A DNA stretch of 42,258 bases, from the NCBI GenBank assembly GCA_020441005.1, contig JAGRNA010000005.1, positions 1 to 42,258 on the forward strand, read 5' to 3'. Origin of the DNA: Leptospiraceae bacterium (lineage in GTDB: Bacteria; Spirochaetota; Leptospiria; Leptospirales; Leptonemataceae). Below are positions 3 to 38,441 of this stretch, in pieces. The notes beneath the pieces are model-generated. The model saw nothing but the letters and a program-made list of their open reading frames with translations. It did not search any database and had not been told where the DNA came from. The translations under genes were made by a program, and so were the position numbers. Each line of letters starts with the position of its first letter. Position 1 is the stretch's first letter.

Positions 3-1577
3 GATCTGGACGGCTTCAAGCCGGTCAATGACAGCTGGGGGCATGACAGTGGCGACGCGCTATTGGTCAAAATGGCCCAGCGGCTAAAGGGCTGTCTACG
101 GATCGGCGATACAATTGCCCGTATTGGCGGCGATGAATTTGCAATGCTGTTACCTGATTTCGAAAACCAGGCTGAATGCGAAAATACTCTGCGACGTATC
201 CTGGCGGTAATCCGCCAGCCAATTCATGTGCATCATCAAATGGTCAGTCTTTCCGCCAGTATTGGCGTGTGCTTGCATCATGAGGGCACCGATGAACCGG
301 ACACTTTATTGCGCTACGCGGACCAGGCCATGTACCAAGCGAAGGAATCCGGTCGCAATCGTTTCTGCATATACGACGCTGACGCTGATCGCGGCAAGCA
401 GCATCTGCACATTTTTTTGCAAACTGTGTCGCAGGCCATCCAGAATGATGAGTTCGTGGTTTATTACCAGCCACGAGTGAATATGCGGTTGGGCATTTTG
501 ACCGGAGCCGAGGCTCTGGTCCGCTGGCAGCATCCCCTGCGCGGACTCTTGAGTCCGGCAGAATTCTTGCCCTTGATCGAAGATACAGACCTGATTATTG
601 AGCTGGGCTGGCTGGTCTTGCGCAAGGTCTTGCAACAAATGGATGCATGGCACCACAACCAGCTACCCCTGCGCCTGAGTGTAAATATCTCGGCCCGCCA
701 CCTGCAGGCCAATGATTTTATCGCCCGCTTGCAAGGCTTGTTACAGGAGTACAATCGGGTCAGCCCCTACTGGCTAGAACTGGAGATTGTGGAATCCGCA
801 GGCCTGGAAGACATGCAAGGTGTTTCGGATGTGATTCGGGCCTGTCAGCAAATGGGAGTCAGTTTTGCGCTGGATGATTTTGGAACAGGCTACTCTTCTT
901 TGACCTATTTGCGCTATTTGCCGGCCAATACGGTCAAGATAGATCGCAGCTTTGTCAAGGATATGCTGTGGGATCCGGACGATATGGCGATTGTGGAGTC
1001 CGTCATTAGCCTGGCGAACGCCTTCCGGCGCCTGATTGTAGCCGAGGGGGTGGAAAGCGTCGAGCATGGGCAGTTTCTAATCAGTCTGGGTTGCGAAGAA
1101 GCCCAGGGCTTTGAAATCGCACGTCCCATGCCAGCCGATGAAATACCGGGTTGGGCCAGCAACTGGAAAGCCGATCCGGTTTGGCTGCGCACGCAGCGCC
1201 ATCGTTGGTCGCGTGAAGACCTGAGCCTGCTAATTGCAGACAATGAACATCAAAAATGGATCCAGGCCCTGGAGCAATATGTGCAGAACCCGCAGTTGTA
1301 TCAGACACCGACCTTGAATACAAATAATTGTCGCTTTGGTATGTGGTTTAACGGAGTGGGCGAGTCCCGTTACGGACATTTCAATGAATTCCAGCAGCTA
1401 GGCATTTCGCACCGTAAACTGCATGAGCTTGGACATATCATTATTGAGCTGGCTGGATCGGACACCGCTGATCCGGATCAAATCGCCAGGCAAATCGCCG
1501 AATTGCATACGCTAAAAAACCAGCTTTCGCGCGAATTGTACGCCCTGCTGGAACTCTTGACCAGCGAACAAAGTTAG
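3..1577 (+). CDS. GGDEF-EAL diguanylate cyclase/phosphodiesterase with C-terminal CZB domain (5' truncated)
   Basis: The frame is open from the window edge, so the N-terminus (any sensor domain and the start of GGDEF) is missing. Counting from the methionine at 63, an intact GGDEF motif lies at residues 22-26. The EAL domain has EAL at 150-152, DDFGTGYSS near 271-279, the KIDRSFV segment near 292 and an AEGVE segment near 327, so both catalytic domains look active. Residues about 385-500 resemble a chemoreceptor zinc-binding (CZB) domain: His396, the CRFGMW motif with Cys423, and His450/His454 fit the 3His/1Cys zinc site. GGDEF domains make and EAL domains hydrolyse cyclic-di-GMP; CZB domains are known to sense zinc or hypochlorous acid. 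I infer a cytosolic redox- or zinc-tuned c-di-GMP enzyme. Its stop codon overlaps the stop of the converging acyltransferase gene by 3 bp. Confidence 0.93.
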   Translation, partial: DLDGFKPVNDSWGHDSGDALLVKMAQRLKGCLRIGDTIARIGGDEFAMLLPDFENQAECENTLRRILAVIRQPIHVHHQMVSLSASIGVCLHHEGTDEPDTLLRYADQAMYQAKESGRNRFCIYDADADRGKQHLHIFLQTVSQAIQNDEFVVYYQPRVNMRLGILTGAEALVRWQHPLRGLLSPAEFLPLIEDTDLIIELGWLVLRKVLQQMDAWHHNQLPLRLSVNISARHLQANDFIARLQGLLQEYNRVSPYWLELEIVESAGLEDMQGVSDVIRACQQMGVSFALDDFGTGYSSLTYLRYLPANTVKIDRSFVKDMLWDPDDMAIVESVISLANAFRRLIVAEGVESVEHGQFLISLGCEEAQGFEIARPMPADEIPGWASNWKADPVWLRTQRHRWSREDLSLLIADNEHQKWIQALEQYVQNPQLYQTPTLNTNNCRFGMWFNGVGESRYGHFNEFQQLGISHRKLHELGHIIIELAGSDTADPDQIARQIAELHTLKNQLSRELYALLELLTSEQS

Positions 1578-2710
1578 TTGTTCTTACGCATACCCAGCCC
1601 ATGCCGGGAAAGCAGCATGGGCCACCCGTAAAAGGGGGTATGATAAGCCAGTATGCCCGGGTGACTCCAAAGGGCCTTGAGGTAGCTGAGGTTGTCATGC
1701 GACATACTGGCCGTGGTATCGCGCAAGAATAAACGTTCATGCTCCTTAAATAGCAGCGGCCAACCGGATGGGAAAATATATAGAAACTGGTCCCGATTCT
1801 CTATCCAAATCTGCAGCAATTCTTCCACGGCAAAGGGATCCTTACCGTAATCCGCCACCGCCTGATCCAGATCGGTCTGTATACTCTCCTGGACTTTGAT
1901 TCGGATCTGGTTCAATTCACGCTGCCCCATTTGATCGTAGTCTGTCCCGGCGATCTCGCGCAAGGAGATCCGCCGTCCTTGCAGGTAGGTCAGGCGAGCC
2001 GGCAAGCCGAAGTAAAAAGACCAGGGAAACAGGGTGACCAGGGCTGTGATGGGCCCTACGGGCACAAAGGGAATGCCGACCTTTTGCGCCAGGCTATTCA
2101 AAAAGTCAGATTTATAGCCCATCGGGTTGATAAATTCACCATTGACTGTCAACACCGGCACAATGTCGGTTTTAAACTTAAGCGCCATCCGAATAAAGGA
2201 ATTCGAGAAGCGTTGCAATTGATAGCGCTTCTCGAAGCCCTTGCCTATTCCGGCGATTCCCTCCGGATAGATCAATACCGCCGCGCCCGGACGTTGCAGG
2301 AGTTCCTCGAAATTCCCCAGTGAGGCGTCCACACCGCCGGTCTTCTTCCAAAAATTGTCGATGAAATAGGGATTCATGATGCTCGTCAGGGAGAGCGCCG
2401 GCGCCACCAGAGCGCGACAGGCATCCTGCATTTCATAGCCTCGTTTGGCGTACAGACTGGCGCTGAACATAATGGCATCCCAGGGAAAGGACATGCCGCT
2501 GTGATTGCCGGCGTAGATCAGCGGTGTTCCGCTCGTAGCCGGAAAATCGGGCTCATCAAAGCCGATCAAACGCGGTCGAAAGTAATTGCGACCTAAAAAT
2601 TCGAGTACATTTTTGGACAGGCTGCGCGCGTATTCATGATCGAAATAACGGTCTATGGAATCTAATTTGGAAGCATCTAGCAGCTGTTGAATTCGTTTTA
2701 CGCGTGACAT
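1574..2710 (-). CDS. MGAT-like lysophospholipid/diacylglycerol acyltransferase (PlsC superfamily)
   Basis: The 378-residue protein has a glycerolipid acyltransferase core: an AGNHSG block (an NH.D-type active site, here with a longer HSGMSFPWD spacing), then YPEGIAGIGKGF, matching the PEG substrate-binding block, followed by a KFKTDIVPV segment. The HSG...PWD and PEG...KG arrangement is typical of the MGAT/DGAT-like LPLAT subfamily rather than classical PlsC. The likely role is transfer of a fatty acyl group onto a hydroxyl of a glycero- or glycolipid at the membrane. I chose ATG at 2710; a TTG 54 bp upstream extends the frame but adds an unlikely Cys-rich leader. It is the last gene of a six-gene minus-strand run, 79 bp after the glycosyltransferase, which suggests it finishes the lipid made there. 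The exact substrate cannot be read from sequence. Confidence 0.85.
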   Translation of the reverse strand: MSRVKRIQQLLDASKLDSIDRYFDHEYARSLSKNVLEFLGRNYFRPRLIGFDEPDFPATSGTPLIYAGNHSGMSFPWDAIMFSASLYAKRGYEMQDACRALVAPALSLTSIMNPYFIDNFWKKTGGVDASLGNFEELLQRPGAAVLIYPEGIAGIGKGFEKRYQLQRFSNSFIRMALKFKTDIVPVLTVNGEFINPMGYKSDFLNSLAQKVGIPFVPVGPITALVTLFPWSFYFGLPARLTYLQGRRISLREIAGTDYDQMGQRELNQIRIKVQESIQTDLDQAVADYGKDPFAVEELLQIWIENRDQFLYIFPSGWPLLFKEHERLFLRDTTASMSHDNLSYLKALWSHPGILAYHTPFYGWPMLLSRHGLGMRKNN

Positions 2711-2789
2711 GGAACCGACCGTACTCTGCTCGCAGCAGGCAGCAGTGCGCCATGCTGCTTGCAAGCTGATCAGAAATCGAGTAAAAAAA

Positions 2790-4091
2790 TCAGGTCGCAG
2801 CGTCTAAATCGGTGAAATCATCATTCGCCCGCACTAGATAGCGCCGACGACGCCAATAGATCACATTCGAAAAGAGAGCCTGCTGCAGATGCAGGATTTG
2901 CAACAGCTCGGATAACTCCGAAAGCAGCGGGCGATAGCGAATCCGCCGATCCAGACGAAGCTGCAAGCTGACAATCCAGATCACCCGCAAGACCAGCACA
3001 GTTCCGAGCAACCAAATTCCCCACAGTAGATGCGATCCGGCAAACAACAGCGCTCCGATCACTGTGACACCAAGCAAGATTGGCGGCAATCCTTGTAAAA
3101 ACCAAATGACAGCTTGCATGCCGAAGCTTTCCTTTTTTAATAGCAAAATGGCAAAGCAAAACCAGCGTTGCATTTGCCTGCGATACTGCTTGCAGCCAGT
3201 CAAACTGGTTTGAATATATTGCACCAAGGGCAGCTGCTGAATGCGGCCCGCATGCGGACCATGGCGTTTCAGCCAATCACTGACCGCCAGATCATCTGTC
3301 AGATGACTAAGCAAGGGCTCAAAATTACACAGGGCTCGCAGACTAGCCTGGCTGAGGGCATAGCACATGCCGTTAATGCTGATTGGCGGCAGCAATGGCG
3401 CCAGCGGCAGATAGGTCAGAGCGGCATTGTTGTTCACAAATTGGGCCAACAGGCGCGTAGCCAGACGGCCATCGGTCCGGTAGACAGGCAATCCGGTAAC
3501 GAGTGCATGTTGGGACAAGCCGGCTTGCAGGGCTTGCCGAGTGCGATCCGGCAGCAAGGTATCATCATCAAGGACAATCAGACATTCGGTCGAATAGAAC
3601 TGGCGGGCAAAATGCAGCTTGAACAGCTTGGGATTGGTGCCATTGGGACAAGGCGGACAAATCACGATGCGCAACTCTGCTTTTCCTTGCCCGCCGGAGC
3701 CATCAGATTGCTGCTCGAGTCGCGCTCGTTCGCGTTCTTGAATAAATGCGGTAATGCGCCGACCTTCCGCATCATCCTCATCCACCAGCCATAGAAAGCG
3801 GCAGTGCGGGTTCGACCTGATGTTAGCCTGCAAGGTTTCGGACAGCAAAGGGTCGCCACTCAGTATGGCTTGCACAATGGTCACCTGCGACGGGTCGCTG
3901 TATGCTCTGGTCGCCGTTGCAATGCTATTTTGGCGGGAGGCCGCGGTGCTGAGATCAGAGTCTGACTGCAAGCGTGCAAGCATGGGCTGATACTGCCGTT
4001 CGTACAGATTGATATAGTAAAAAGCGAGCGCAGTTTTTCCCAGTGATATGCAAACATAGGCCAGCGCACAAATCAAGACCAGTTGCATCAT
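2790..4091 (-). CDS. Membrane glycosyltransferase, family 2/21 (ceramide glucosyltransferase-like)
   Basis: 433 residues. An N-terminal membrane helix (about 1-25) precedes a GT-A domain with a DDD metal motif at 175-177, a TDD...D block at 265-267 corresponding to the D3 acceptor motif, and Q-x-Q-R-W at 306-310 following RR. Two or more hydrophobic helices follow (about 315-375). The D/D/D/(Q/R)xxRW order is that of GT21 ceramide glucosyltransferases and HpnI-type enzymes, so a sugar is probably transferred from a nucleotide donor to a lipid at the cytoplasmic face. ATG at 4091 is chosen because AGGGGGA lies 5 bases upstream and the start is 1 base after the stop of the preceding gene; the longer frame would run back into that gene. 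Translational coupling to the upstream reductase is therefore likely. The lipid acceptor is unknown. Confidence 0.86.
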   Translation of the reverse strand: MMQLVLICALAYVCISLGKTALAFYYINLYERQYQPMLARLQSDSDLSTAASRQNSIATATRAYSDPSQVTIVQAILSGDPLLSETLQANIRSNPHCRFLWLVDEDDAEGRRITAFIQERERARLEQQSDGSGGQGKAELRIVICPPCPNGTNPKLFKLHFARQFYSTECLIVLDDDTLLPDRTRQALQAGLSQHALVTGLPVYRTDGRLATRLLAQFVNNNAALTYLPLAPLLPPISINGMCYALSQASLRALCNFEPLLSHLTDDLAVSDWLKRHGPHAGRIQQLPLVQYIQTSLTGCKQYRRQMQRWFCFAILLLKKESFGMQAVIWFLQGLPPILLGVTVIGALLFAGSHLLWGIWLLGTVLVLRVIWIVSLQLRLDRRIRYRPLLSELSELLQILHLQQALFSNVIYWRRRRYLVRANDDFTDLDAAT

Positions 4092-4092
4092 G

Positions 4093-5073
4093 TCATTCCC
4101 CCTGCCTGCGTTGCCATTCCAGGAAGGCGGCGACCCCGTCCGCGATGCTGACACGCGGTGGCCCTAGATCCCGAATGGCCTTATCGACCAGAAAGGTCTT
4201 GGAAAGACCAAATACCTGCACGCCAAAGCGGGTCACTGGCGGTTCGCTTTGGATGCCCAATGTGCGGTAGACGCCTTCGATCAGACTGGCAGCCCATAAG
4301 GCCTGGCGATACGAAACTCGCCGCGTTGGCAGGGGCAGACCCAGCCGTTCAAAGATTGCGCACACAAAAGCGATGATCGGCACTGATTCATTATTGGTCA
4401 GATTATAATCGCCCTCTATCCCGGGCTGGACGGCCGCCGTGTAGATGTATTCGATCAGATTATCAATATAGATCAGGTCCCCGCGGGCTTGTGGATCGGG
4501 TCTGGTAATCAGCGGTAGTTTGCCCTGGCGCGCTGCAGTCAGCATGCGCGGAAACAAAACGGTGTCGCCCGGACCAAAGACAGCCCGGGGGCGCAGGATC
4601 GCCGAGCGACCAGTCCATTGCCGAACAAGCATTTCACCCTCAAATTTTGTGCGCGCATAATGATTGATGAATTCGGGCCCAATGGGCGATTCTTCTGTCA
4701 AATCGAATTGATCGCGGTTCGTGTAATAGACCGAGCTGGAAGATATGTACACCAGCTTTGGGACCCCGACCGCCTGGCAAAACTCAATCACATTTTGAGT
4801 CGCCTTGACATTATCAGCCCTGAATTCTGCCAGCGAGCCCCACGGAGAAGCTTTCGCAGCGGCATGCACCACTACATCGATCCCGCCCGCCGATGCAATT
4901 GCTGCTGGCATTGCCTCGCGCAAATTGTGTTGCACGTAGCGTACGTCTGGCGGCAGACTCGCTGGTCGCGCTCGGCGGCCCAACCCGATCAGCTCGAGTC
5001 CGTCCTGGCCGGAATAACGGCGCACAAAAGCGCCGCCCACAAACCCGGACGCGCCGGTCACCAACATCCGCAT
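4093..5073 (-). CDS. NAD(P)-dependent epimerase/dehydratase, extended SDR (3-beta-HSD/OleD-like)
   Basis: 326 residues. The N-terminus has the Rossmann signature TGASGFVG at 6-13. A Ser-rich strand at 111-114 and Y139-x-x-x-K143 provide the SDR catalytic triad. Sequence style (KASPWG near 74-79, PRAVFGPGD about 160-168) matches the 3-beta-hydroxysteroid dehydrogenase/epimerase group, which includes the ketoreductase OleD of olefin biosynthesis. In this context a ketone reductase acting on the beta-keto product of the upstream synthase is attractive, but a sugar epimerase serving the adjacent glycosyltransferase is equally compatible. It starts 36 bp after the adenylating enzyme and ends 1 bp before the glycosyltransferase, clearly within one transcription unit. 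Confidence 0.87.
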   Translation of the reverse strand: MRMLVTGASGFVGGAFVRRYSGQDGLELIGLGRRARPASLPPDVRYVQHNLREAMPAAIASAGGIDVVVHAAAKASPWGSLAEFRADNVKATQNVIEFCQAVGVPKLVYISSSSVYYTNRDQFDLTEESPIGPEFINHYARTKFEGEMLVRQWTGRSAILRPRAVFGPGDTVLFPRMLTAARQGKLPLITRPDPQARGDLIYIDNLIEYIYTAAVQPGIEGDYNLTNNESVPIIAFVCAIFERLGLPLPTRRVSYRQALWAASLIEGVYRTLGIQSEPPVTRFGVQVFGLSKTFLVDKAIRDLGPPRVSIADGVAAFLEWQRRQGE

Positions 5074-5109
5074 GCGGCCACTGTACCGGGCCAGCGCTCT
5101 TTGGCAAGA

Positions 5110-6516
5110 TTAGATTCGGTCGACCGCTTTGATCAAGCTGCGTATACGAATCTGCTTGGCGCCTGGTTCTCTTGCTTGCCAGGCCTGGATGACAATTGGC
5201 GGGCACATCAGCTGCAATTGTTTCAGGCGTTGTTGCCAGTCCTTCCGGATGCGGGCAACAACCTGGTCCGATTGGGCCGTTGTCGGCAGATCTAGCTGCA
5301 ACACAAGCCGATCGGCGTATTGAGTAATTTGATAATCGCGAATCACTGCAGCGCTGCTATACATCAACTGGCGCACAGAATCCGGAAACAAGGGTTGCCA
5401 TGCAGAAGCATCGCCAGGCGCACCTGGGCCACCGGATGAATCCCGGGCGGCGCTGCGTTGGAAATAGAGCACCTCATCAGCGCGACCCACCACCTGCTTG
5501 ATGCGCAAACGGCTCGTTTGACACGGACAGGGTCGCGGATCTATTTCCAGAATATCATCCAGTCGGTAGCGGATGAAAGCCTGGCTGCTGCGACTAAAAT
5601 CGGTCAAAACAGGATGAAAGCGACGCTCATCCAGCCATTCCTTTTCAAAATAGATAAAATCCTCGTTTAAATGCAAATTACCAGACTGGCAGCTGATACC
5701 CAGCAAGCCCTCCGTGCATTGATAAATTTCTTGCGGCCGGACACCAAAACGTTTTTCAATAGCAAGACGATCAGCGGCCGGCAATACCTCGGCTGCGTTA
5801 AAGATTTGACGCAGCGCACGCAATGCCAAAAGACCGTCACTCTCTTTGGATAACCAGACCAGTACGCTGGCTGGTGCGACCAGGATATGCGGCTGAAACT
5901 GTTGCAAACGCTCCCGCAGCTGCTGCGGCTCAGCCAGTAAATCAAACCAGGCGAACTGTAGTCGACGACTGCCCAGACCTTCATATAAATTGCTGTTGGC
6001 CCGCAAAAAAAGGGCGATGCGCAGCGGTTGAAGCCAGGGAAGCAAGAGCTGACGCAGGGATATCGAATCCAGGCCGCGTGCCAGGATTACCGCTGCCCAG
6101 GTCAATCGTTCCACCGGACTGACCAAAAACAGCCCGGGTTTCCCGGAAGTGCCGCTCGATAAACCGATTGTCAACGACTGCAGCTGGGGCCGAAAATCCC
6201 GCTCCGCTTCCGCACGGCGCGCGATTCCAAGAGCGCTCTGACGATCGAGTCCAATCGCATTCAAGGCGCTGAATTCGGCTTGCATAACAGCCTTGTTGAT
6301 TGGAGGCCAGTCTTGCAGCAACCCGGCCGGATCGCCATTTGGTATCGGGCTAAAGTGGTGGGCTGATTTGGGGCCGGCCTGGTTGCGATAAAATTGAAAC
6401 CGAATCCTGGCCTGGCGCAGAAACTGCCGCAGACGGCGGTACTGCCAACGCTGCAGGCTGGATCTTAGCTTGAAACGCTGCAGCCAGCGCGTACGCCCAA
6501 AAATCCAGACCGCCAT
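5110..6516 (-). CDS. F390-synthetase-related adenylate-forming enzyme
   Basis: 468 residues from ATG 6516; a TTG start at 6567 would add 17 residues and overlap the upstream gene. No good ribosome-binding site is seen at either. The AMP-binding P-loop SSGTSGKPG lies at about 120-128 and YQCTEG (adenine/acyl pocket block) at about 265-270. A Y-R-L-D-D-I-L segment leading to PRPCPC is typical of the phenylacetate-CoA ligase/coenzyme F390 synthetase/CapK branch of the ANL superfamily. It presumably activates a carboxylate as acyl-adenylate; whether the acceptor is CoA, an amine or internal (as in beta-lactone synthetase OleC) is unknown. Its position between a hydrolase and a reductase, 17 bp after the hydrolase stop, marks it as a core gene of the cluster. 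Confidence 0.85.
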   Translation of the reverse strand: MAVWIFGRTRWLQRFKLRSSLQRWQYRRLRQFLRQARIRFQFYRNQAGPKSAHHFSPIPNGDPAGLLQDWPPINKAVMQAEFSALNAIGLDRQSALGIARRAEAERDFRPQLQSLTIGLSSGTSGKPGLFLVSPVERLTWAAVILARGLDSISLRQLLLPWLQPLRIALFLRANSNLYEGLGSRRLQFAWFDLLAEPQQLRERLQQFQPHILVAPASVLVWLSKESDGLLALRALRQIFNAAEVLPAADRLAIEKRFGVRPQEIYQCTEGLLGISCQSGNLHLNEDFIYFEKEWLDERRFHPVLTDFSRSSQAFIRYRLDDILEIDPRPCPCQTSRLRIKQVVGRADEVLYFQRSAARDSSGGPGAPGDASAWQPLFPDSVRQLMYSSAAVIRDYQITQYADRLVLQLDLPTTAQSDQVVARIRKDWQQRLKQLQLMCPPIVIQAWQAREPGAKQIRIRSLIKAVDRI

Positions 6517-6533
6517 CAAAGCATGGCGCAGTT

Positions 6534-7415
6534 TCAGGCAAACAGCTCCTGCCAGGTAGCCAGGCAATGCGAAGGGATCAGGTGTGGTGCAGCAGGTTCA
6601 GAAAGCAGTTGGGCCAGTTGGTCAAAGGTTTGATCATAGCGCCGACGATTGTCGAAGACCAGACTGGTGATTGCCATCGGTTTGCGATCCTCTTGTAGCG
6701 CCCGCCGGCTCCAGGCGGCGTCGCCAATCAGGAAGAATGATCCTAGGCGTTCATCACAACCAACCAAACCAAGCTGGCTGCGGGTATGACCCGGCAAATC
6801 AATGCCAAGCAGGCTTTGATCCCCCAACAGATCATAAGCCTGCTGAAAGGGATGCAAGCGGGGACCGGGATCCAGAACAGCACAATCCTCGACAAACTCC
6901 AGGCGTTCATCCAGATCCAGGGGCAAGAGTTCCTGTAAAAAAGCGCGTTGTAAGCGTTGCAGGCGCCCCATGCGGCGCACAGTTTGCACCTCAGCGCGCA
7001 TGGCCAGCAGACGAGCCCTGGGAAAATCACGCAACCCGGCAATATGGTCGGCGTGAAAGTGGGAGATACAGATCGTATCAATATCACTGGCTTGAATACC
7101 GCGGTCCGCTAGCTGACGCAGCAAGGTTTCCTCGGGTTTCAGATGAACTGGAGTCACCCGAGCGTACAAACACTCGGGCAGCTTGCGCGTGGCCCTGAAA
7201 AAATGCTCGGCGTAACCGGTATCGTACAACAGGTAGCCCCGCGACGGATGGCGGATCAATCCCACCAGCGCCGGAAACTCGACTGAACGCAGGCTGCCGC
7301 CGCGCATGGCGACACACTCCGGATGATTACAATAACCAACTCGCAGGACCTCGAGGGAAACCCTGGTTTCTTGCCGGCGCGGCTGTGCGGCGGGTGGCTC
7401 TTGTACTACTTGCAT
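6534..7415 (-). CDS. Metallo-beta-lactamase-fold hydrolase
   Basis: 293 residues. The di-zinc motif H119-F-H121-A-D123-H124 is present, with H210 in LPGHT, the bridging D232 in LIGDAAW and a final H283 in IPSHC, so all metal ligands of the MBL fold are intact. The layout resembles the N-acyl-homoserine-lactone lactonase/glyoxalase II branch: a YDTGYAE strand near 64, then the HxHxDH loop. No signal peptide is seen. It lies 20 bp after the FabH-like gene and 17 bp before the ligase start. I infer a thioesterase or lactone/ester hydrolase serving the pathway, the position that OleB (an alpha/beta hydrolase) occupies in ole clusters. ATG at 7415 has no clear ribosome-binding site, so coupling to the upstream gene is plausible. 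Confidence 0.88.
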   Translation of the reverse strand: MQVVQEPPAAQPRRQETRVSLEVLRVGYCNHPECVAMRGGSLRSVEFPALVGLIRHPSRGYLLYDTGYAEHFFRATRKLPECLYARVTPVHLKPEETLLRQLADRGIQASDIDTICISHFHADHIAGLRDFPRARLLAMRAEVQTVRRMGRLQRLQRAFLQELLPLDLDERLEFVEDCAVLDPGPRLHPFQQAYDLLGDQSLLGIDLPGHTRSQLGLVGCDERLGSFFLIGDAAWSRRALQEDRKPMAITSLVFDNRRRYDQTFDQLAQLLSEPAAPHLIPSHCLATWQELFA

Positions 7416-7435
7416 TGAATTGACAATATAATAAA

Positions 7436-8428
7436 TTAGTATACTAAAATCATGCCGCCGATCGTCAGACCCGCACCCGTACCCAGCAGCATGATCTTGT
7501 TGCCGCGCTGAATTCCGTAGTTTTGCAGACCGTGGTGCAGGGCCGTGGGCAGCGATGCCCCGACTTGATTACCGTGTTCTGCAAAAATATCGACACATTT
7601 GTCCCTGGAAATCTGCAAGCGTTCCATCATGTGATCCAGGGCCAGACGGCTGGCTTGATGGGGCACAACCAGATCAATCTCATCCAGGCTGCAGCCGGCG
7701 TCTGCCAGCAGTTGCTCCACAAATGCGGGCATCTCACGGGTTGCCAAAGCAAAAACAGCACGTCCGTTCATGCCGAAGAAGGCTTCGCTATTGGAACCCG
7801 GCACCCGCCGATGATAGCGCGTCCCGCCGGCATTAATGTGGCAATAGTCAACTCCCGCCGAAATGGTGATACTGTTCGCCGCCAGAATGGCGCTACCAGA
7901 GTCCTGGGGAGCAGCGCGGACTACGACGGCCGCCCCTCCGTCCCCGAAGATGCCGTTCTCGCGCAAGTTGCGATAATCGACTGTGAACGTCGAGATATCC
8001 GCGGATACCAGCATGACATTCTGAAAACGACCGGCCCCAATCGCATAGCTAATGATATCCAGTGCACTCAAAAACGACAGGCAGCTGGCCCCCATGTCCA
8101 TGGTCATGGTGCGATGTTGCAGCAAACCCAATTCTGCGTGAATCATGGCCGCATTATAGGGCAATGCCTTGTCCATAGTGGCGGACGCAGCCACCAGACA
8201 ATCAATGTCAGCCCACTGCAAGCGGGCGGCCTGCAATGCTGCCTGGCAAGCCGTTGCGGCTAACTGGGCAGCGGTTTCGGTATCGCTTTGATAACGCTGC
8301 CTGATGCCGGTAATTCTTTCGCTCTCACCGGCCATTAAACCCAGTCGTTCATCCAATTGCGACGCCCTGAGCAGCTGGCTCGGGCTGGCTACCGCTGTGG
8401 AACAAATCTGCAGGGGTCTTGGTGTCAT
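7436..8428 (-). CDS. 3-oxoacyl-ACP synthase III-like condensing enzyme (FabH/OleA superfamily)
   Basis: 330 residues from ATG 8428. The thiolase-fold Cys-His-Asn triad is intact: Cys116 in MGASCLSF, His257 in VPHQAS and Asn287 in HGNQVGAS. An in-frame ATG at 8464 would add 12 residues; 8428 is preferred because it puts the active Cys near its usual position (112 in E. coli FabH). FabH enzymes condense an acyl thioester with malonyl-ACP; OleA-type relatives perform head-to-head Claisen condensation of two acyl-CoAs. This protein is first in a run of six lipid-type genes with no acyl-carrier gene nearby, so a secondary-metabolism role is more likely than housekeeping FabH. That is inference; substrate preference cannot be read here. 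Confidence 0.88.
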   Translation of the reverse strand: MTPRPLQICSTAVASPSQLLRASQLDERLGLMAGESERITGIRQRYQSDTETAAQLAATACQAALQAARLQWADIDCLVAASATMDKALPYNAAMIHAELGLLQHRTMTMDMGASCLSFLSALDIISYAIGAGRFQNVMLVSADISTFTVDYRNLRENGIFGDGGAAVVVRAAPQDSGSAILAANSITISAGVDYCHINAGGTRYHRRVPGSNSEAFFGMNGRAVFALATREMPAFVEQLLADAGCSLDEIDLVVPHQASRLALDHMMERLQISRDKCVDIFAEHGNQVGASLPTALHHGLQNYGIQRGNKIMLLGTGAGLTIGGMILVY

Positions 8429-8572
8429 AGCGTGGGACTTTTTCCCCGCAGGGCCGGATTCCATCCTTGCTGTTGTAACTGCGTCATCTCATACCGGTCC
8501 GACCGGGCTGCATCCAGGCAGATGTCTGCATCGATTGAAACTAATCAGTCTAAAACCATGCCTGAGACAACC

Positions 8573-8659: not shown

Positions 8660-9940
8660 ATGAGCTCAGGCAAAAGCATCATCAGGCGTTTTTTGTACTA
8701 TTCCGTTGGATTTGGAATTCTGATGGGACTGGTCTTCCCCTTGTATGCCATCATCTTTGTGGCCGGCTGGAAAAGCGACCTGATGTTTATTTTCTTTGCC
8801 GCTGGTTGTATCCTGGCTGGCATCATGGTCGGGCTGGTCAGTTACCAAATCCACAAGAGCACTATCATGAAGGTAGTGAACGACCTTTCTCGTCAAATGC
8901 ACAATATTGCCGCAGGCGATGCCGATTTACGCATGCGCATGGATTGTGATTCCCAGGATGAGCTCGGGCATTTGACAGACAATTTTAATCAATTTGTAGA
9001 ACGCATTCATGGCGTGATTCGCGAAAGCCAGTCGATGATCCAGGTCCTCGGTGAGGCCACGCGCAGCATGTCTGATGCGGCCAACGAATTGTCGGACACA
9101 ACCCAGGGAGAGGCCGCCACTGCCGAGCAAATTTCTGCCGCTGTGGAAGAGATTTCACGCGAGATTGTAAACGTAGCCCGCAGCACCCAAAAACAGAATC
9201 AACTGGTGAATGGTATGCTGCAGAATATGGCTGTAGCCAGTAAAGGGATCATCACTGCCGACGAACAAACCAGATCGGCGGCCGAATTATCGCGCACCAT
9301 TCATGCCGACACCCAGGCGGGTAGCGAGGCCTTGCAGGAGCTGGGCGACCGCATGCAAGCCATCCGCAACTCGTCCAGTGAAATGACGAAAGTGATAACC
9401 ATCATCAATGAAATCTCCGCCCGGATCAATTTACTATCACTGAATGCTTCAATTGAAGCGGCCCGGGCGGGGGACGCGGGACGCGGCTTTGCCGTTGTGG
9501 CCGACGAGGTTGCCAAACTGGCCGACGAAACCGATAAGGGGCTCAAGAACATCGAAAAAATGGTTCAATCCAACGACGAAGGCATCCTGGTAGCCCTGGA
9601 GAAATCGCACACAACCAGACTGGTTATTGAACAAATCACCCAGGGCATTAGCGCCATTGAAACCCGGATGGAGCATATCCAGAGCATCATGAGCGATTCG
9701 GTGGCCAGCAACCAAAAGGTCGAAGAAGAAGCCCGGTTGCTCGGCACCATGAGTTCCGAAATTGACCGGGTGACAAATGAGGAAAAACTGGCCTTTGGCG
9801 ATATTTCTTCCTCGATGAGCGAAATCGACAAGCTATCGCAGGCGGTGGCCTTTTCTTCGGAACGGCTAGCCAGTCTGTCTAATGATATTTCAAAGAGCGC
9901 GTCAAACCTGGAATCAAGGGTGAACTTGTTCAAGGTCTAG
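8660..9940 (+). CDS. Methyl-accepting chemotaxis protein lacking a large sensor domain
   Basis: 426 residues. Two hydrophobic helices (about 12-35 and 40-62) with almost no periplasmic loop are followed by a HAMP-like segment (about 65-115) and a long coiled-coil signalling domain. The receptor hairpin that binds CheA/CheW is clear near residues 255-300: the [20 protein letters not shown] stretch, then [20 protein letters not shown]. With no periplasmic or PAS sensor, it may sense membrane state, proton-motive force or a signal through HAMP, or pair with another receptor. The ATG has an AGGGCGGGC stretch upstream as a weak ribosome-binding site. The last 27 bases overlap the converging perR-like gene. 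Confidence 0.92.
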
Positions 9941-13886: not shown

Positions 13887-15071
13887 CTATGCCTGGTCTG
13901 CCTTGCGCAGTGCGTCCAGAGCCGGGGTGGCCTCTTTTAAAAGAATAGCCAAAGCAGCAGCGCTAGAACAGGCATTCAGGCTGACCTTGTTGCTATTGCC
14001 GGACTCATGCACTATGCGCACGGTGTCTTGTCCCATCACCACGCTGCGACCCTTGTGCTTTGCCAGGCTTTTGGCGAGGCCCTCGCTGCCCTTGCGGGCC
14101 TGATCGAACTCAATCGCTCCCATCGGTCCGTACCATAACACTGTTTGAGCCTGCTTTAAGATCTTGTCATATTGCGCTACAGTTTTGGGACCAATGTCCA
14201 TGCCAAACCAGCCGTCCGGTATAGCGGCTCGCGCAAATGCCCTCGGTTTGGCCTTGCGCGAGAATTGATCGGCTGCCAGGTGATCGAGGGGAAATACGGT
14301 TTCAGCTTCGGAAAGCTCGGCTCGTTCAATGGTCTGAAAGCTGCTTACTTCAGCCTGGCGATCAACCAGTGAAGCGCCGATCGGCAGAGCGCGGCCTTTC
14401 ATAAAGGTATAGGCCGTCGCGCCACCCAGCAGGATCACCTGCACGCGCTCTAAAAAGCGTCGAATGATCCTGTTCTGCCGTTCTACCTGGTTCCCGCCGA
14501 GCAGCAGCACCAAAGGTCGGGAATCAAGCTGATCCAGACTATTGATATGCTCCAGAAATTTATGAAATTCCAGACCCATGTATCCGGGAAGCAGGCCCGG
14601 CAGATGGATGAGCGAGGAGCGCTGCAAATGCAGGTTGCCGGGCGCATCATTCACGTATAAGTCCGCTAAAGCAGCCAGCTCATTGGCAAATGCTTTTTCT
14701 GCCTTACTCTCGGATTCGCCGCCCACGCTCATCAGGTTTTCCAATAGACAGATCGAACCGCCGGCGCGGCTCTCCAGATTGGCCCGACCGTTACCCAAAG
14801 GATCGGTAATATAATCGACTGGCTGCTTCAATAAATCACTCAGGCGTTTAGCGGCTCTGCTTAAATCAAGCGCCCGTCCGCCAGACGCGGCTGAGGACAC
14901 AAGCAACACCGTGGCGCGTCGATCCACCAGCAATTCAATGCTCTCCTGCGCTTGACGCAGGGAGACATCGTGAATCAACTCACCATCCGGTGCGAGGATC
15001 GATTCGCAGTCAATGCTCATCAGCACGCGCTTGTTTTGCACCGGGGCGCTTTCCAGTCGATTTCCAGCCAT
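13887..15071 (-). CDS. Phosphoglycerate kinase-like protein with degenerate active site
   Basis: 394 residues, the normal PGK length, and the whole two-domain fold is recognisable (SICLLENL, YVNDAPG, LLGG, GMDIGPKT, VLWYGPMGAIE blocks). Nearly every substrate-binding residue is replaced. The usual RVDFNVP is SIDCESI; the second-strand Arg is Ser; SHLGRP is SSAASG; the ENLR Arg is Met; AHRAH is LHLQR; the two lysines of GGAKVxDK are Gln (GGNQVERQ); the GGGD phosphate loop is MGQD. Normal PGK converts 1,3-bisphosphoglycerate and ADP to 3-phosphoglycerate and ATP; this protein should not. The frame is intact, so it is probably a pseudoenzyme with a regulatory or structural role, and a canonical pgk should exist elsewhere. 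ATG 15071 lacks a clear ribosome-binding site; Met18 is an alternative start. Confidence 0.85.
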   Translation of the reverse strand: MAGNRLESAPVQNKRVLMSIDCESILAPDGELIHDVSLRQAQESIELLVDRRATVLLVSSAASGGRALDLSRAAKRLSDLLKQPVDYITDPLGNGRANLESRAGGSICLLENLMSVGGESESKAEKAFANELAALADLYVNDAPGNLHLQRSSLIHLPGLLPGYMGLEFHKFLEHINSLDQLDSRPLVLLLGGNQVERQNRIIRRFLERVQVILLGGATAYTFMKGRALPIGASLVDRQAEVSSFQTIERAELSEAETVFPLDHLAADQFSRKAKPRAFARAAIPDGWFGMDIGPKTVAQYDKILKQAQTVLWYGPMGAIEFDQARKGSEGLAKSLAKHKGRSVVMGQDTVRIVHESGNSNKVSLNACSSAAALAILLKEATPALDALRKADQA

Positions 15072-34994: not shown

Positions 34995-37900
34995 CTATTG
35001 CTCAACACAGATGATGCGCGATAGTGTGTCGCAATTTTGCCGGTTTGTGCTGAGCGCTGCTTGACTCATTACACCGCTTGCCGTTCCATATTGGCCCCAA
35101 TAGTTGATGGTATTGCCGGGGTTATCAGTATAGGTCCAGTCCTCGCAGTTATTCATGGTATTGCTACCATCGATTACAGCGTCCGGCTGTGTCTGCATTG
35201 ACCCACTTTGCATCCCAGTCCAGACTGTGCCATAGTTCGGCCAGGAATAGCCACTCCAGGAACTAATCAAGCTATTAGCATCTGTCTTGAATACCAAAGA
35301 ACTGGATCCTTCATCAATATTGCAGAGTGCACCGGTGCATAAATAGTACGATGTGCTGGCTCCTAGTACCCAGTTATATTGCCCAGTATTCGTAGTGCCA
35401 TTGGTTGTTGCAATGCGACCGTATGCCGGCCCGGTGGTCAAATCATTCACAATCAGCGCCTTGTAGGTCGGACTGCCGCTTTCCACAGCTGCCACTGAGT
35501 TGGTATCGCTGGTATCAGCACAATAGCTGTCAATAGTACTGATCGAACTGGCTGTAAATTCGCCATTGTGGGTTTGATTAGTTACCCACACGCGCTTACG
35601 AGGGCCATCCTGGTCCACATTCGTCACATTGCGTGTGTTCGTTTGTCCACTCGTGAATACACCACCGGAACCGCTGTCACCCGAGTTCACAGTAAAAGTC
35701 ACAGTTATGGTTTTGTCGCCATCAGCCAAATCGGCCACATTGTCATCGCGGCCCGTAACGGTGACACATTTCTCACACGACCCGCCAGTGGCGCAATATT
35801 CTGTAGTCCCGAACGATAAACTAGTCGGACTGACTGACGCACACTCAGTGGCGTCGCCGCAGGTCACATCAACGGTGATGCCTACTTTCGGAGCCGTACC
35901 CAGTTGTAAACACGCCGTGGCAGTACCCCCGCTTTCAGTAGTGCTGCCAGTTCCTTCCGTCTGCCACTTGTATTCATTGTCCGCGTTGCTAAAGCTATAA
36001 CTGGACAAGCCGGTTTTACAAACGCTGCCACCAGCATCCAGACAGCCGCTACAGCTGGCCGCTGAAATAGAGAACGATTTGGAACCATCCAGATCACTGT
36101 CATCCGCACCGGTTACGATCACACGGTTTGTACCGCCATCCAGTTGGGCTGAATTGGCACTCGTTATTGTTGGATTCGTTGTCACCGTACCCTCATCCGT
36201 ATCACCGCCGCTTATATTAAATGTGATACCGCCATCACAGGCTGTCTGGGTAATAAAATGGACATAACCGGTATCACCGCTCTCTGACGTAGCAGTATCG
36301 ATAGCGCCCCCACCAGATTTTTGACAGGCCACAACCTGATTGCTGACATCGTTATCACAGCTATAAATATCAAATGTCGGCCGATTCGGATTGGTCCCGT
36401 TATAATTACTGTCACCGGACGCAAAGCTGGTAGAGATGCGATAGGTCAGATTACCCTCATTGGTGCCATCGGTTGATCCGTTAACAGTAACAGGTTGTGC
36501 AACATTCCAATTATCCGTAGTAAATAGCAACGATGATGTGCTCAGGATGCCGTCCGTGTGTGTTGAATCACTTGAAAGCGTTACAGTTACATTAGCAGTC
36601 GGCTTGGAATAAAGCTTGATCTGCCAGCTAGCATAGGTGGACCCCATCCGATTGCTATCGTCCGTCGCATAGCCGGTAAAGTTCTGCGTGCCGGCTGCTG
36701 TAAGGATTGTCGAATCTACAACTACGCCCACGATATCTTCGTTCTTGTTCGTGACTGTTACATCGCGCGGGTCAATACCGTTGTAGCCCGTATCTGCCGA
36801 AACCACGTTCTTCATCTGAATCACATAGGACTCATTTGTATCCTTGATGTAATCGTTGGTTGGATACACAGTCACCGTCTGTGGTGTGTTCCAGTTGGCT
36901 GGTGTAAAAGTTAGCGTTTTTTGATTCTGATTGCCAGAAAGCGGGTTCGCATCGGCAGAGCCTTCATTATTCAGGATATTGGTTGGATCATATAAATCAT
37001 TGATCTCAATGCTGACATCGGCCGTGGGCGCTTTCGTCAGCTTTACTGTATACGTCGCAGTGACAGCATCAGTATAGCCGCTGCCAGGTGATGCCTCCTC
37101 GGTCTGGTTGGAAAGGTTTGATACCCGGACTCCAGGCCCTTCATCATCACCAATCGTTACCTTGATCTCATCAACCGGTTTACCTCCATAACCGCAGGTG
37201 CCAGTAGCCGCAACAGTAAACTTCACCTGCACGCTGCTATTCGTATTTTCTACCGCATCGTCATTGATTGTAATAGTAAATGTTTTTGTGGTATTGCTTG
37301 TAAATACCAGTGATGTGGGCGAAAAAGACACCCGGCCATCAGCCGGCACTGTGTATGGGGTAACAGTTACAGTCTCACCTGAACAGGTGCCGGTGAAGGC
37401 CTGGTTTAATTTGATACTGGCGGTTGTTTGACAGCTGCCGTATACACCGCACTCAGCCGGAACACCGGTTTCAATGAGTTCGACTTCTAAAGGCGAAGAA
37501 GTAACCCAGGCGTCCTCATCCAGGTTCGTTACCTTAACCGGGTCTGGCACAATACCGTTATACTCGGTAGAAGAACCGCTGGGTGTTTGGGTGGCAGCGC
37601 CATGAGTTACAGTGTATGTTTGCGCTCCATCTTCGATGCTATCCTGCAATCCCGTGACGATGACAGTCTGCGGAGTACTCCAGTTGGACGTAGTAAAGGT
37701 CAGGCTCGTTTTGTCGGCAGAACCTTCCGTGGTATCACCGATTGTAATGGTCGGTATTGTGACGCTGGTAGAAGGGGCAGAGCTCAAGGCAACGACATAG
37801 CTGGCTGTATGATTATATGTGCCGTTACCAGCCGGATTTTCCGTGGTGTACATCGTTTGCGGATACACTATAATACTATAGGACTCGTTGTCGGTCACAT

Positions 37901-38441
37901 TGATGTCTTTGGAGGGACATAGCAAGCCCGAATAGGCGGAATCGGTACTACTAGCATTGCCAAAAATCAGGGAAACTGTCTTATTGCCATCGGCAACATA
38001 TTCGTCCACGCCACTCAGTGTGACCGTTTGGGCCTGATCCCAATTGGTGGTTGTAAAGGTGACGGTAGATGGAGAAACGGTAAATTCTGTCGTATCACCA
38101 CTACTCAGGTTGTAGGTCACATCGCCGGCGGGACGGGCATTCAGAACCACGGTAACCTCGAGGGTCCCACCAGATTCGCTCAGGATATTAGAACCGTTAA
38201 CATACGTTGTTGTACACCCAGGTGTAGAACCCAGCGAGCCGGTTAGCCCAAAAAGTACGGTATCCACCAAGTCTGTACCTTGCTTACATCCAGAAGCGAC
38301 CAAAGCCGCCAGCAACAGCACACCCGCAATGCGCTTGCCTATGACGCGAAAATTCGCTTTTAAAGATGCAGCATGCTTACCCGGGGTTCGATTGCTGAAA
38401 GCCGGGGGAGTATTCTTGTTTGCAGGTGATAATGTTGTCAT
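34995..38441 (-). CDS. Large lipoprotein with Calx-beta-like repeats and C-terminal DUF1554-like domain
   Basis: 1148 residues. After a 35-residue basic leader a hydrophobic core ends in the lipobox LVASGC (Cys52). About seven repeats of ~100-110 residues follow, each with a (L/V)xFTTxNWxxxQTVTV strand, a DxxxDG turn and an NGI.P..V.VTN.DED end, the style of Calx-beta domains. Repeats 3, 6 and 7 are divergent and Cys-rich. The last ~165 residues start VWVTNQTHNGEF and include YCADTSD, YKALIVND, TNTGQYNWVLGASTSYYLC, WTGMQSG, CEDWT and a final ICVEQ. That arrangement is the DUF1554 domain of Leptospira surface lipoproteins, with a C-type-lectin/endostatin-like Cys pattern. A surface-exposed adhesin-like role is inferred, not shown. 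Start ATG 38441 has only a weak ribosome-binding site. Confidence 0.9.
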   Translation of the reverse strand: MTTLSPANKNTPPAFSNRTPGKHAASLKANFRVIGKRIAGVLLLAALVASGCKQGTDLVDTVLFGLTGSLGSTPGCTTTYVNGSNILSESGGTLEVTVVLNARPAGDVTYNLSSGDTTEFTVSPSTVTFTTTNWDQAQTVTLSGVDEYVADGNKTVSLIFGNASSTDSAYSGLLCPSKDINVTDNESYSIIVYPQTMYTTENPAGNGTYNHTASYVVALSSAPSTSVTIPTITIGDTTEGSADKTSLTFTTSNWSTPQTVIVTGLQDSIEDGAQTYTVTHGAATQTPSGSSTEYNGIVPDPVKVTNLDEDAWVTSSPLEVELIETGVPAECGVYGSCQTTASIKLNQAFTGTCSGETVTVTPYTVPADGRVSFSPTSLVFTSNTTKTFTITINDDAVENTNSSVQVKFTVAATGTCGYGGKPVDEIKVTIGDDEGPGVRVSNLSNQTEEASPGSGYTDAVTATYTVKLTKAPTADVSIEINDLYDPTNILNNEGSADANPLSGNQNQKTLTFTPANWNTPQTVTVYPTNDYIKDTNESYVIQMKNVVSADTGYNGIDPRDVTVTNKNEDIVGVVVDSTILTAAGTQNFTGYATDDSNRMGSTYASWQIKLYSKPTANVTVTLSSDSTHTDGILSTSSLLFTTDNWNVAQPVTVNGSTDGTNEGNLTYRISTSFASGDSNYNGTNPNRPTFDIYSCDNDVSNQVVACQKSGGGAIDTATSESGDTGYVHFITQTACDGGITFNISGGDTDEGTVTTNPTITSANSAQLDGGTNRVIVTGADDSDLDGSKSFSISAASCSGCLDAGGSVCKTGLSSYSFSNADNEYKWQTEGTGSTTESGGTATACLQLGTAPKVGITVDVTCGDATECASVSPTSLSFGTTEYCATGGSCEKCVTVTGRDDNVADLADGDKTITVTFTVNSGDSGSGGVFTSGQTNTRNVTNVDQDGPRKRVWVTNQTHNGEFTASSISTIDSYCADTSDTNSVAAVESGSPTYKALIVNDLTTGPAYGRIATTNGTTNTGQYNWVLGASTSYYLCTGALCNIDEGSSSLVFKTDANSLISSWSGYSWPNYGTVWTGMQSGSMQTQPDAVIDGSNTMNNCEDWTYTDNPGNTINYWGQYGTASGVMSQAALSTNRQNCDTLSRIICVEQ

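Follow-up and report, generated by a model that had tools for sequence, protein, structure and literature searches.

The DNA analyzed here, referred to as the window, is the 42,258-nucleotide forward-strand stretch (positions 1 to 42,258) of contig JAGRNA010000005.1 from a Leptospiraceae bacterium (assembly GCA_020441005.1). At positions 1574–8428 it carries six minus-strand genes, which we label K (β-ketoacyl-acyl carrier protein synthase III, KAS III), M (metallo-β-lactamase-fold hydrolase, MBL), F (adenylating enzyme), R (OleD-like reductase), G (family 21 glycosyltransferase, GT21), and A (acyltransferase). K, R, M, and F make up a conserved core whose proteins co-evolve, and which recurs as a compact block in at least seven bacterial phyla. 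We propose, at about even confidence, that K-M-F-R-G encodes a head-to-head condensation pathway whose product is a long-chain lipid that has been reduced, re-activated, and glycosylated, with A being a local neighbor. Since K is not an OleA, M has a tryptophan in place of the lactonase tyrosine, and F is unlike OleC, the cluster is Ole-like in its logic, but it is not an ole cluster.

A four-gene core shared across phyla

Plasmid records were searched by tblastn with F and with K, and 80 more loci came from scanning bacterial genomes with an alignment of F; profile searches covered 93 F loci in all, the window included. In the plasmid records, F lies near K in Paraburkholderia, Paenibacillus, Pontibacillus, Paracoccus, Ketogulonicigenium, Shinella, Pseudomonas, and Escherichia coli, and the two genes flank a reductase gene and an MBL gene. 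Across the 93 F loci, R and M each accompany F in 90 and K does so in 87, and the complete set is present in 84. Four of the six K-less loci end at a contig end (L041, L043, L048, and L108), and the genome of another (L093) has a K-clade protein elsewhere (L169). The most frequent order is K-R-M-F (67 loci from Bacillota, Pseudomonadota, one melainabacterium, and plasmid records). The neighborhood picked out by the initial annotation, an earlier reading of the same DNA, does extend beyond this strain, with the window's order K-M-F-R-G recurring in seven loci of four phyla (three Verrucomicrobiota, two Acidobacteriota, one Gemmatimonadota, and one Betaproteobacterium). Three further Verrucomicrobiota loci have the order K-M-F-R, two Bacillota have R-M-F-K, and a Fusobacterium record has G-R-M-F-K.

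The recurrence of the set in unrelated phyla excludes chance as its source. In addition, the pairwise distances of K, R, M, and F co-vary with r = 0.70–0.885, values reached by 0 of 999 permutations in a test that takes no account of shared organismal history; such history is unlikely to be the sole cause of the correlation, because the distribution of the cluster is patchy. Retained in lineages as different as Streptococcus, Fusobacterium, E. coli, Pseudomonas, and Verrucomicrobiota, the core must make something useful, although no product was found in the literature searched.

The genes accompanying the core differ between lineages. ATP-grasp, GNAT, and Rieske genes are found in Pseudomonas, Paraburkholderia, and Shinella, and ATP-grasp and GNAT genes in Paenibacillus, while some clusters carry GT21, a small protein without a Pfam match, and a family 1 glycosyltransferase (GT1). 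These lineage-specific tailoring genes point to one core product with differing decorations. The small protein family (~200 residues, with a SCGLELL-like motif) adjoins GT21, and often has GT1 following it, in L049 (11442–12080), L036, L061, and L073, and a similar protein is encoded at 6214–6861 of L029.

In E. coli, the core occurs in 674 of 5,426 complete genomes (~12%, or about one in eight). In strain LF82 it is part of a seven-gene insertion between narI and tyrTV/purU (positions 5001–11882 of L217), encoding a KAS III, a reductase, an MBL protein, an F390-related protein, a PAP2 protein, a fatty-acid hydroxylase, and a desaturase; no function for this insertion was found in the literature searched. 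K-12 lacks the core at the narI–purU site, and its carriage by other E. coli strains thus makes the core accessible to standard genetics and lipid mass spectrometry.

The ketosynthase belongs with MxnB and CorB

K (7436–8428, minus strand; 330 residues, with another possible ATG at 8464) is a KAS III-fold ketosynthase with domains PF08545 and PF08541. Its best model is PRK07204, "beta-ketoacyl-ACP synthase III" (325.8 bits, under the cut-off of 402), which matches all 20 K proteins scanned but gives no specific pathway role. The Cys-His-Asn triad is kept in 86–87 of 87 loci and corresponds to C116/H257/N287 in P0001 numbering (the conservation alignment is numbered from the longer ATG start, and 12 is subtracted for P0001). 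In a tree of 85 KAS III proteins, the window K groups with Verrucomicrobiota K proteins (Shimodaira–Hasegawa-like approximate likelihood ratio test, SH-aLRT, 99), and the enclosing clade (SH-aLRT 99) comprises MxnB and CorB alongside 34 K proteins from clusters and three K-like proteins from the same genomes; this clade is separate from FabH and from OleA. The AlphaFold model of K (predicted local distance difference test score, pLDDT, 92) likewise has its best fold match in MxnB/CorB (4v2p/4yuc; template modeling score, TM, 0.92), compared with TM ~0.88 for FabH and 0.85–0.87 for OleA. The catalytic glutamate preceding the active-site cysteine of OleA (Glu117) is absent from K, MxnB, CorB, and FabH in the alignment: at this position, which lies in the motif EP.TA of two OleA proteins above the family cut-off (L188 and L189), the window K has a leucine, and MxnB and CorB have a valine where OleA and PpyS have the glutamate (PMC4578411). 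Judged by its clade, its triad, and the missing OleA glutamate, K is a predicted MxnB/CorB-type ketosynthase.

MxnB and CorB, standalone ketosynthases from the myxopyronin and corallopyronin pathways, are the nearest solved relatives of K in both sequence (31% identity) and fold, and share its active-site composition. However, they come last in large type I polyketide synthase lines, where they close an α-pyrone, whereas K lies beside a reductase, an MBL hydrolase, and a ligase, in a cluster with no polyketide synthase gene. MxnB holds two long chains in two tunnels and joins them (PMC5724707). The core gives enzymes of this type a possible role beyond polyketide antibiotics.

The initial annotation had called K a FabH/OleA-type condensing enzyme. 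The KAS III assignment holds, and K lies outside housekeeping FabH: a housekeeping FabH is rejected by the score against the FabH model TIGR00747 (194.7 bits, under the cut-off of 292.1), by the absence of the coenzyme A/acyl carrier protein arginines Arg36, Arg151, and Arg249 from the window K and from MxnB/CorB, and by tree position. OleA-type, on the other hand, has to be withdrawn both for the window K and for the main clade, which lack the catalytic glutamate and fall outside the OleA clade; the fold of the window K also fits MxnB/CorB best. Two Actinomycetota loci (L039 and L065) do pair an F390-related gene with an OleD-like gene and with a KAS III that has the OleA-type glutamate and falls near OleA; here F is combined with a condensing enzyme a second time and independently.

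It is also conceivable, though unlikely, that K is a decarboxylative KAS III starting an unusual fatty chain on the host's acyl carrier protein, with M, F, R, and G modifying this chain into a hydroxy-acid glycolipid and no joining of two chains. The retained triad is that of decarboxylative KAS III enzymes, the FabH model does score 194.7 bits, and there is no other clear FabH in the genome. Against this stand the subthreshold score and the missing arginines, the grouping of K with the two-chain-joining MxnB and CorB, and the patchiness of the cluster, given that fatty-acid synthesis is essential. Several relatives also lack a FabH, such that the lineage seems not to need one.

A reductase, an adenylating enzyme, and a hydrolase complete the core

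R (4093–5073, minus strand; 326 residues) is an OleD-like NAD(P)-dependent reductase of the extended short-chain dehydrogenase/reductase type, with a YxxxK motif read in the sequence. It scores 166.7 bits against the OleD model NF042422 (cut-off 580), and over 333 columns it shares 32% identity with OleD from L218, a genuine oleABCD cluster whose OleC and OleD served as controls. R thus appears to be an OleD homolog, as first annotated (3-beta-HSD/OleD-like). In the R tree, all the K-M-F-R loci fall together in a single clade (SH-aLRT 100), and the F clade of these loci is supported at 61. This weak agreement of the F tree, together with some Betaproteobacteria K proteins of other gene order that intrude in the K tree, means that the five-gene unit may be reshuffled.

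F (5110–6516, minus strand; 468 residues from the ATG at 6516) is a member of TIGR02304, "F390 synthetase-related" (314.4 bits, above the curated cut-off of 251.9), and this model matches all 22 F proteins scanned. The family has no assigned function, and its name denotes only a resemblance to F390 synthetase. It is sparse even where present, exceeding the cut-off in only one of 145 genomes of the phylum of locus L073. Among Protein Data Bank matches, F is PaaK-like. Its ANL motifs and Lys471 (P0003 numbering) are invariant, the latter fitting the role of the adenylation lysine, and the likewise invariant Cys293, His299, Cys347, and Cys349 look like a structural zinc site. The initial annotation had put F in a different ANL branch from OleC, and here the picture changes: F has no detectable similarity to the control OleC (E 0.51), which matches NF045786 and PF00501 where F matches neither. 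The literature searched contains no paper on TIGR02304 or on clusters with F390 synthetase-related genes, and none that describes this gene set or its function, and in this respect the earlier statement that no described pathway has the set agrees with our results. An annotated coenzyme F390 synthetase, IYO_RS29540, of the kiwifruit pathogen Pseudomonas syringae pv. actinidiae (Psa) is represented among 91 transposon mutants with reduced virulence (PMC9823363).

M (6534–7415, minus strand; 293 residues; PF00753) is an MBL-fold dinuclear-zinc hydrolase of the lactonase branch, in which the motif HxHxDH...H...D...H is complete; the ligands H119, H121, D123, H124, H210, D232, and H283 are kept in 89–90 of 90 loci. 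Profile comparison places it with the N-acyl homoserine lactone (AHL) lactonase/pyridoxolactonase branch (4e-25), with the thioesterase PqsE far behind (3e-4), and the top fold matches of its model (pLDDT 95.9) are lactonases. M has the fold and all zinc ligands of AHL lactonases and 4-pyridoxolactonase (AiiA, GcL, AhlX, and 3aj3), but the catalytic tyrosine of these enzymes (DAxY) is replaced by a tryptophan (W235, DAxW; Trp in 87 of 90 loci), and it falls below every lactonase family cut-off (best 53.5 bits against 390). Hydrolysis of a lactone or a thioester is the likeliest activity of M, and its lactonase-branch placement suggests a chemistry different from that of OleB.

An MBL enzyme instead of the α/β hydrolase had been noted from the start, as had the parallel to oleABCD, of which the logic survives, with K in another clade than OleA and M of the lactonase branch rather than OleB-like. 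The oleABCD olefin and oleACD β-lactone pathways (PMC7064751) resemble the window cluster in that they condense, reduce, activate with ATP, and have a hydrolase partner. A true ole-type olefin or β-lactone pathway would combine OleA-like condensation, OleD reduction, and OleC-like β-lactone formation; M would take over the role of OleB and act on the lactone. In its favor, the four-step logic is the same, R is 32% identical to a genuine OleD, M is lactonase-like, and a cluster of OleA, a glycosyltransferase, OleC, a P450, and OleD has been predicted to make a glycosylated β-lactone (PMC7064751). However, oleABCD relies on the OleA glutamate, on OleC, and on an α/β hydrolase, whereas the window has a K lacking this residue in another clade, an F unlike OleC and without its PF00501 match, an MBL-fold M with tryptophan at the lactonase tyrosine, and an extra GT21, and we consider such a pathway quite unlikely.

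A signal pathway resembling pqsABCDE has the same three enzyme types: F would activate a carboxylic, perhaps aromatic, acid, as its PaaK-like family includes aryl-CoA ligases, a PqsD-like K would extend it, and a PqsE-like thioesterase M would hydrolyze the product. We regard this as improbable, since K is nearer to MxnB/CorB than to PqsD in sequence and fold, M is much nearer to lactonases than to PqsE, and the genes that accompany the core (for a fatty-acid hydroxylase, a desaturase, GT21, and GT1) speak for lipids.

A model for the pathway

In the head-to-head condensation model, an acyl chain would be loaded onto the cysteine of K and condensed with a second acyl thioester, probably a β-ketoacyl or malonyl one. 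R would turn the keto group formed in this way into a hydroxyl, M would hydrolyze a thioester or lactone form to the free acid, F would adenylate this acid and hand it over to an acceptor, and G would glycosylate a hydroxyl of the lipid. A may acylate the product, or may be unrelated. In an attractive but unproven variant, K would release a lactone (pyrone) as MxnB and CorB do, in which case a lactonase-type M and then an adenylating F would be well suited to its reopening and re-use. The gene set, its conservation and co-evolution, the family and clade placements, and the intact catalytic residues are observed; we infer the substrates, the order of the steps, the product, and its nature as a membrane or secreted glycolipid. 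A lipid product is favored because lipid-tailoring genes accompany the core, namely the fatty-acid hydroxylase, desaturase, and PAP2 genes in E. coli and GT1 and GT21 genes elsewhere.

G (2790–4091, minus strand; 433 residues from the ATG at 4091) is a GT21-type, ceramide glucosyltransferase-like enzyme, matching PF13506 (Glyco_transf_21) at 76.3 bits. Homologs with 26–44% identity are present in 10 F loci, with invariant DDD, TDD, and RW motifs. G has the domain and the D,D,D,(Q/R)xxRW-type motifs of the CAZy GT21 ceramide glucosyltransferases and HpnI, but scores only 35 bits against HpnI (cut-off 310).

Several points weigh against the model. MxnB uses carrier-bound chains, and the window cluster has no carrier-protein gene. 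No clear FabH other than K was found in the window's own genome, which leaves some room for a housekeeping role of K. The window F forms a long branch (1.25), and no assay of any core enzyme was found in the literature searched. Finally, ATP-grasp, GNAT, and Rieske genes replace the glycosyltransferases in many core clusters, and the product class may therefore not be a simple lipid. Regarding FabH, the window's genome (G000) resembles several relatives in which none was found (G002, G005, G006, G011, G022, and G024), and the window lineage seems to start fatty acids in some other way.

In a broader reading, to which we give slightly less than even confidence, K-R-M-F would be an unrecognized general chassis for joining two acyl chains across many phyla, to which lineages add glycosyltransferases, ATP-grasp/GNAT/Rieske proteins, or a fatty-acid desaturase and hydroxylase. 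The lipids made in this way would form a large, undescribed family, and ~12% of complete E. coli genomes would encode one of its members.

Origin of the cluster and position of the acyltransferase

Among 393 genomes sampled from the window's own phylum, the cluster is found in the window's genome alone, and a conserved trait of the phylum is therefore rejected. In two of these genomes (G004 and G244), distant F-like genes occur on their own, lacking K, R, and G as neighbors; the one in G244 adjoins a different MBL gene. The nearest K, R, and M proteins come from one Verrucomicrobiota locus, with 58, 58, and 57% identity, respectively. Base composition gives no sign of recent transfer, as the GC content at third codon positions is 0.58–0.63 in the cluster and equals that of its neighbors; any transfer would accordingly be old, or from a similar genome. 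K-M-F-R-G is probably a patchy, horizontally acquired lipid-biosynthesis operon.

A (1574–2710, minus strand; 378 residues from the ATG at 2710) is a PF01553 acyltransferase and a co-directional neighbor outside the conserved set. Orthologs with 56–58% identity are present in five same-family genomes without the cluster, and in the three inspected with flanks their surroundings are unrelated. No A homolog was found near the other F loci among the 93. Because A stands alone in relatives and the cluster is limited to the window genome, K-M-F-R-G looks acquired and A looks like a resident gene of the lineage. Of the six-gene unit with two added tailoring steps initially described, the glycosyltransferase thus belongs, and the acyltransferase does not. 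The catalytic motifs, all reported as intact, are so in K, M, F, R, and G; A has NHSG(M)(S/A)FPWD, conserved in its orthologs, in place of the canonical HX4D.

Organization of the locus and other genes of the window

The six open reading frames are uninterrupted and tightly spaced. Their ATG starts at 8428, 7415, 6516, 5073, 4091, and 2710 leave gaps of 20, 17, 36, 1, and 79 bp, exactly as first given. Reading of the translations places a plus-strand GGDEF/EAL-type gene ending at 1577, where it overlaps the end of A, and a plus-strand methyl-accepting chemotaxis-type gene starting at 8660, divergent from K, so that these two genes delimit the cluster at either end. Promoter and terminator scans performed no better than on shuffled sequences.

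Elsewhere in the window, positions 13887–15071 read as a diverged phosphoglycerate kinase with an altered N-terminal substrate motif (RVLMSIDCES), which may be a non-catalytic paralog, and positions 34995–38441 encode a 1148-residue protein that by reading has Calx-beta-like repeats and a C-type-lectin-like end.

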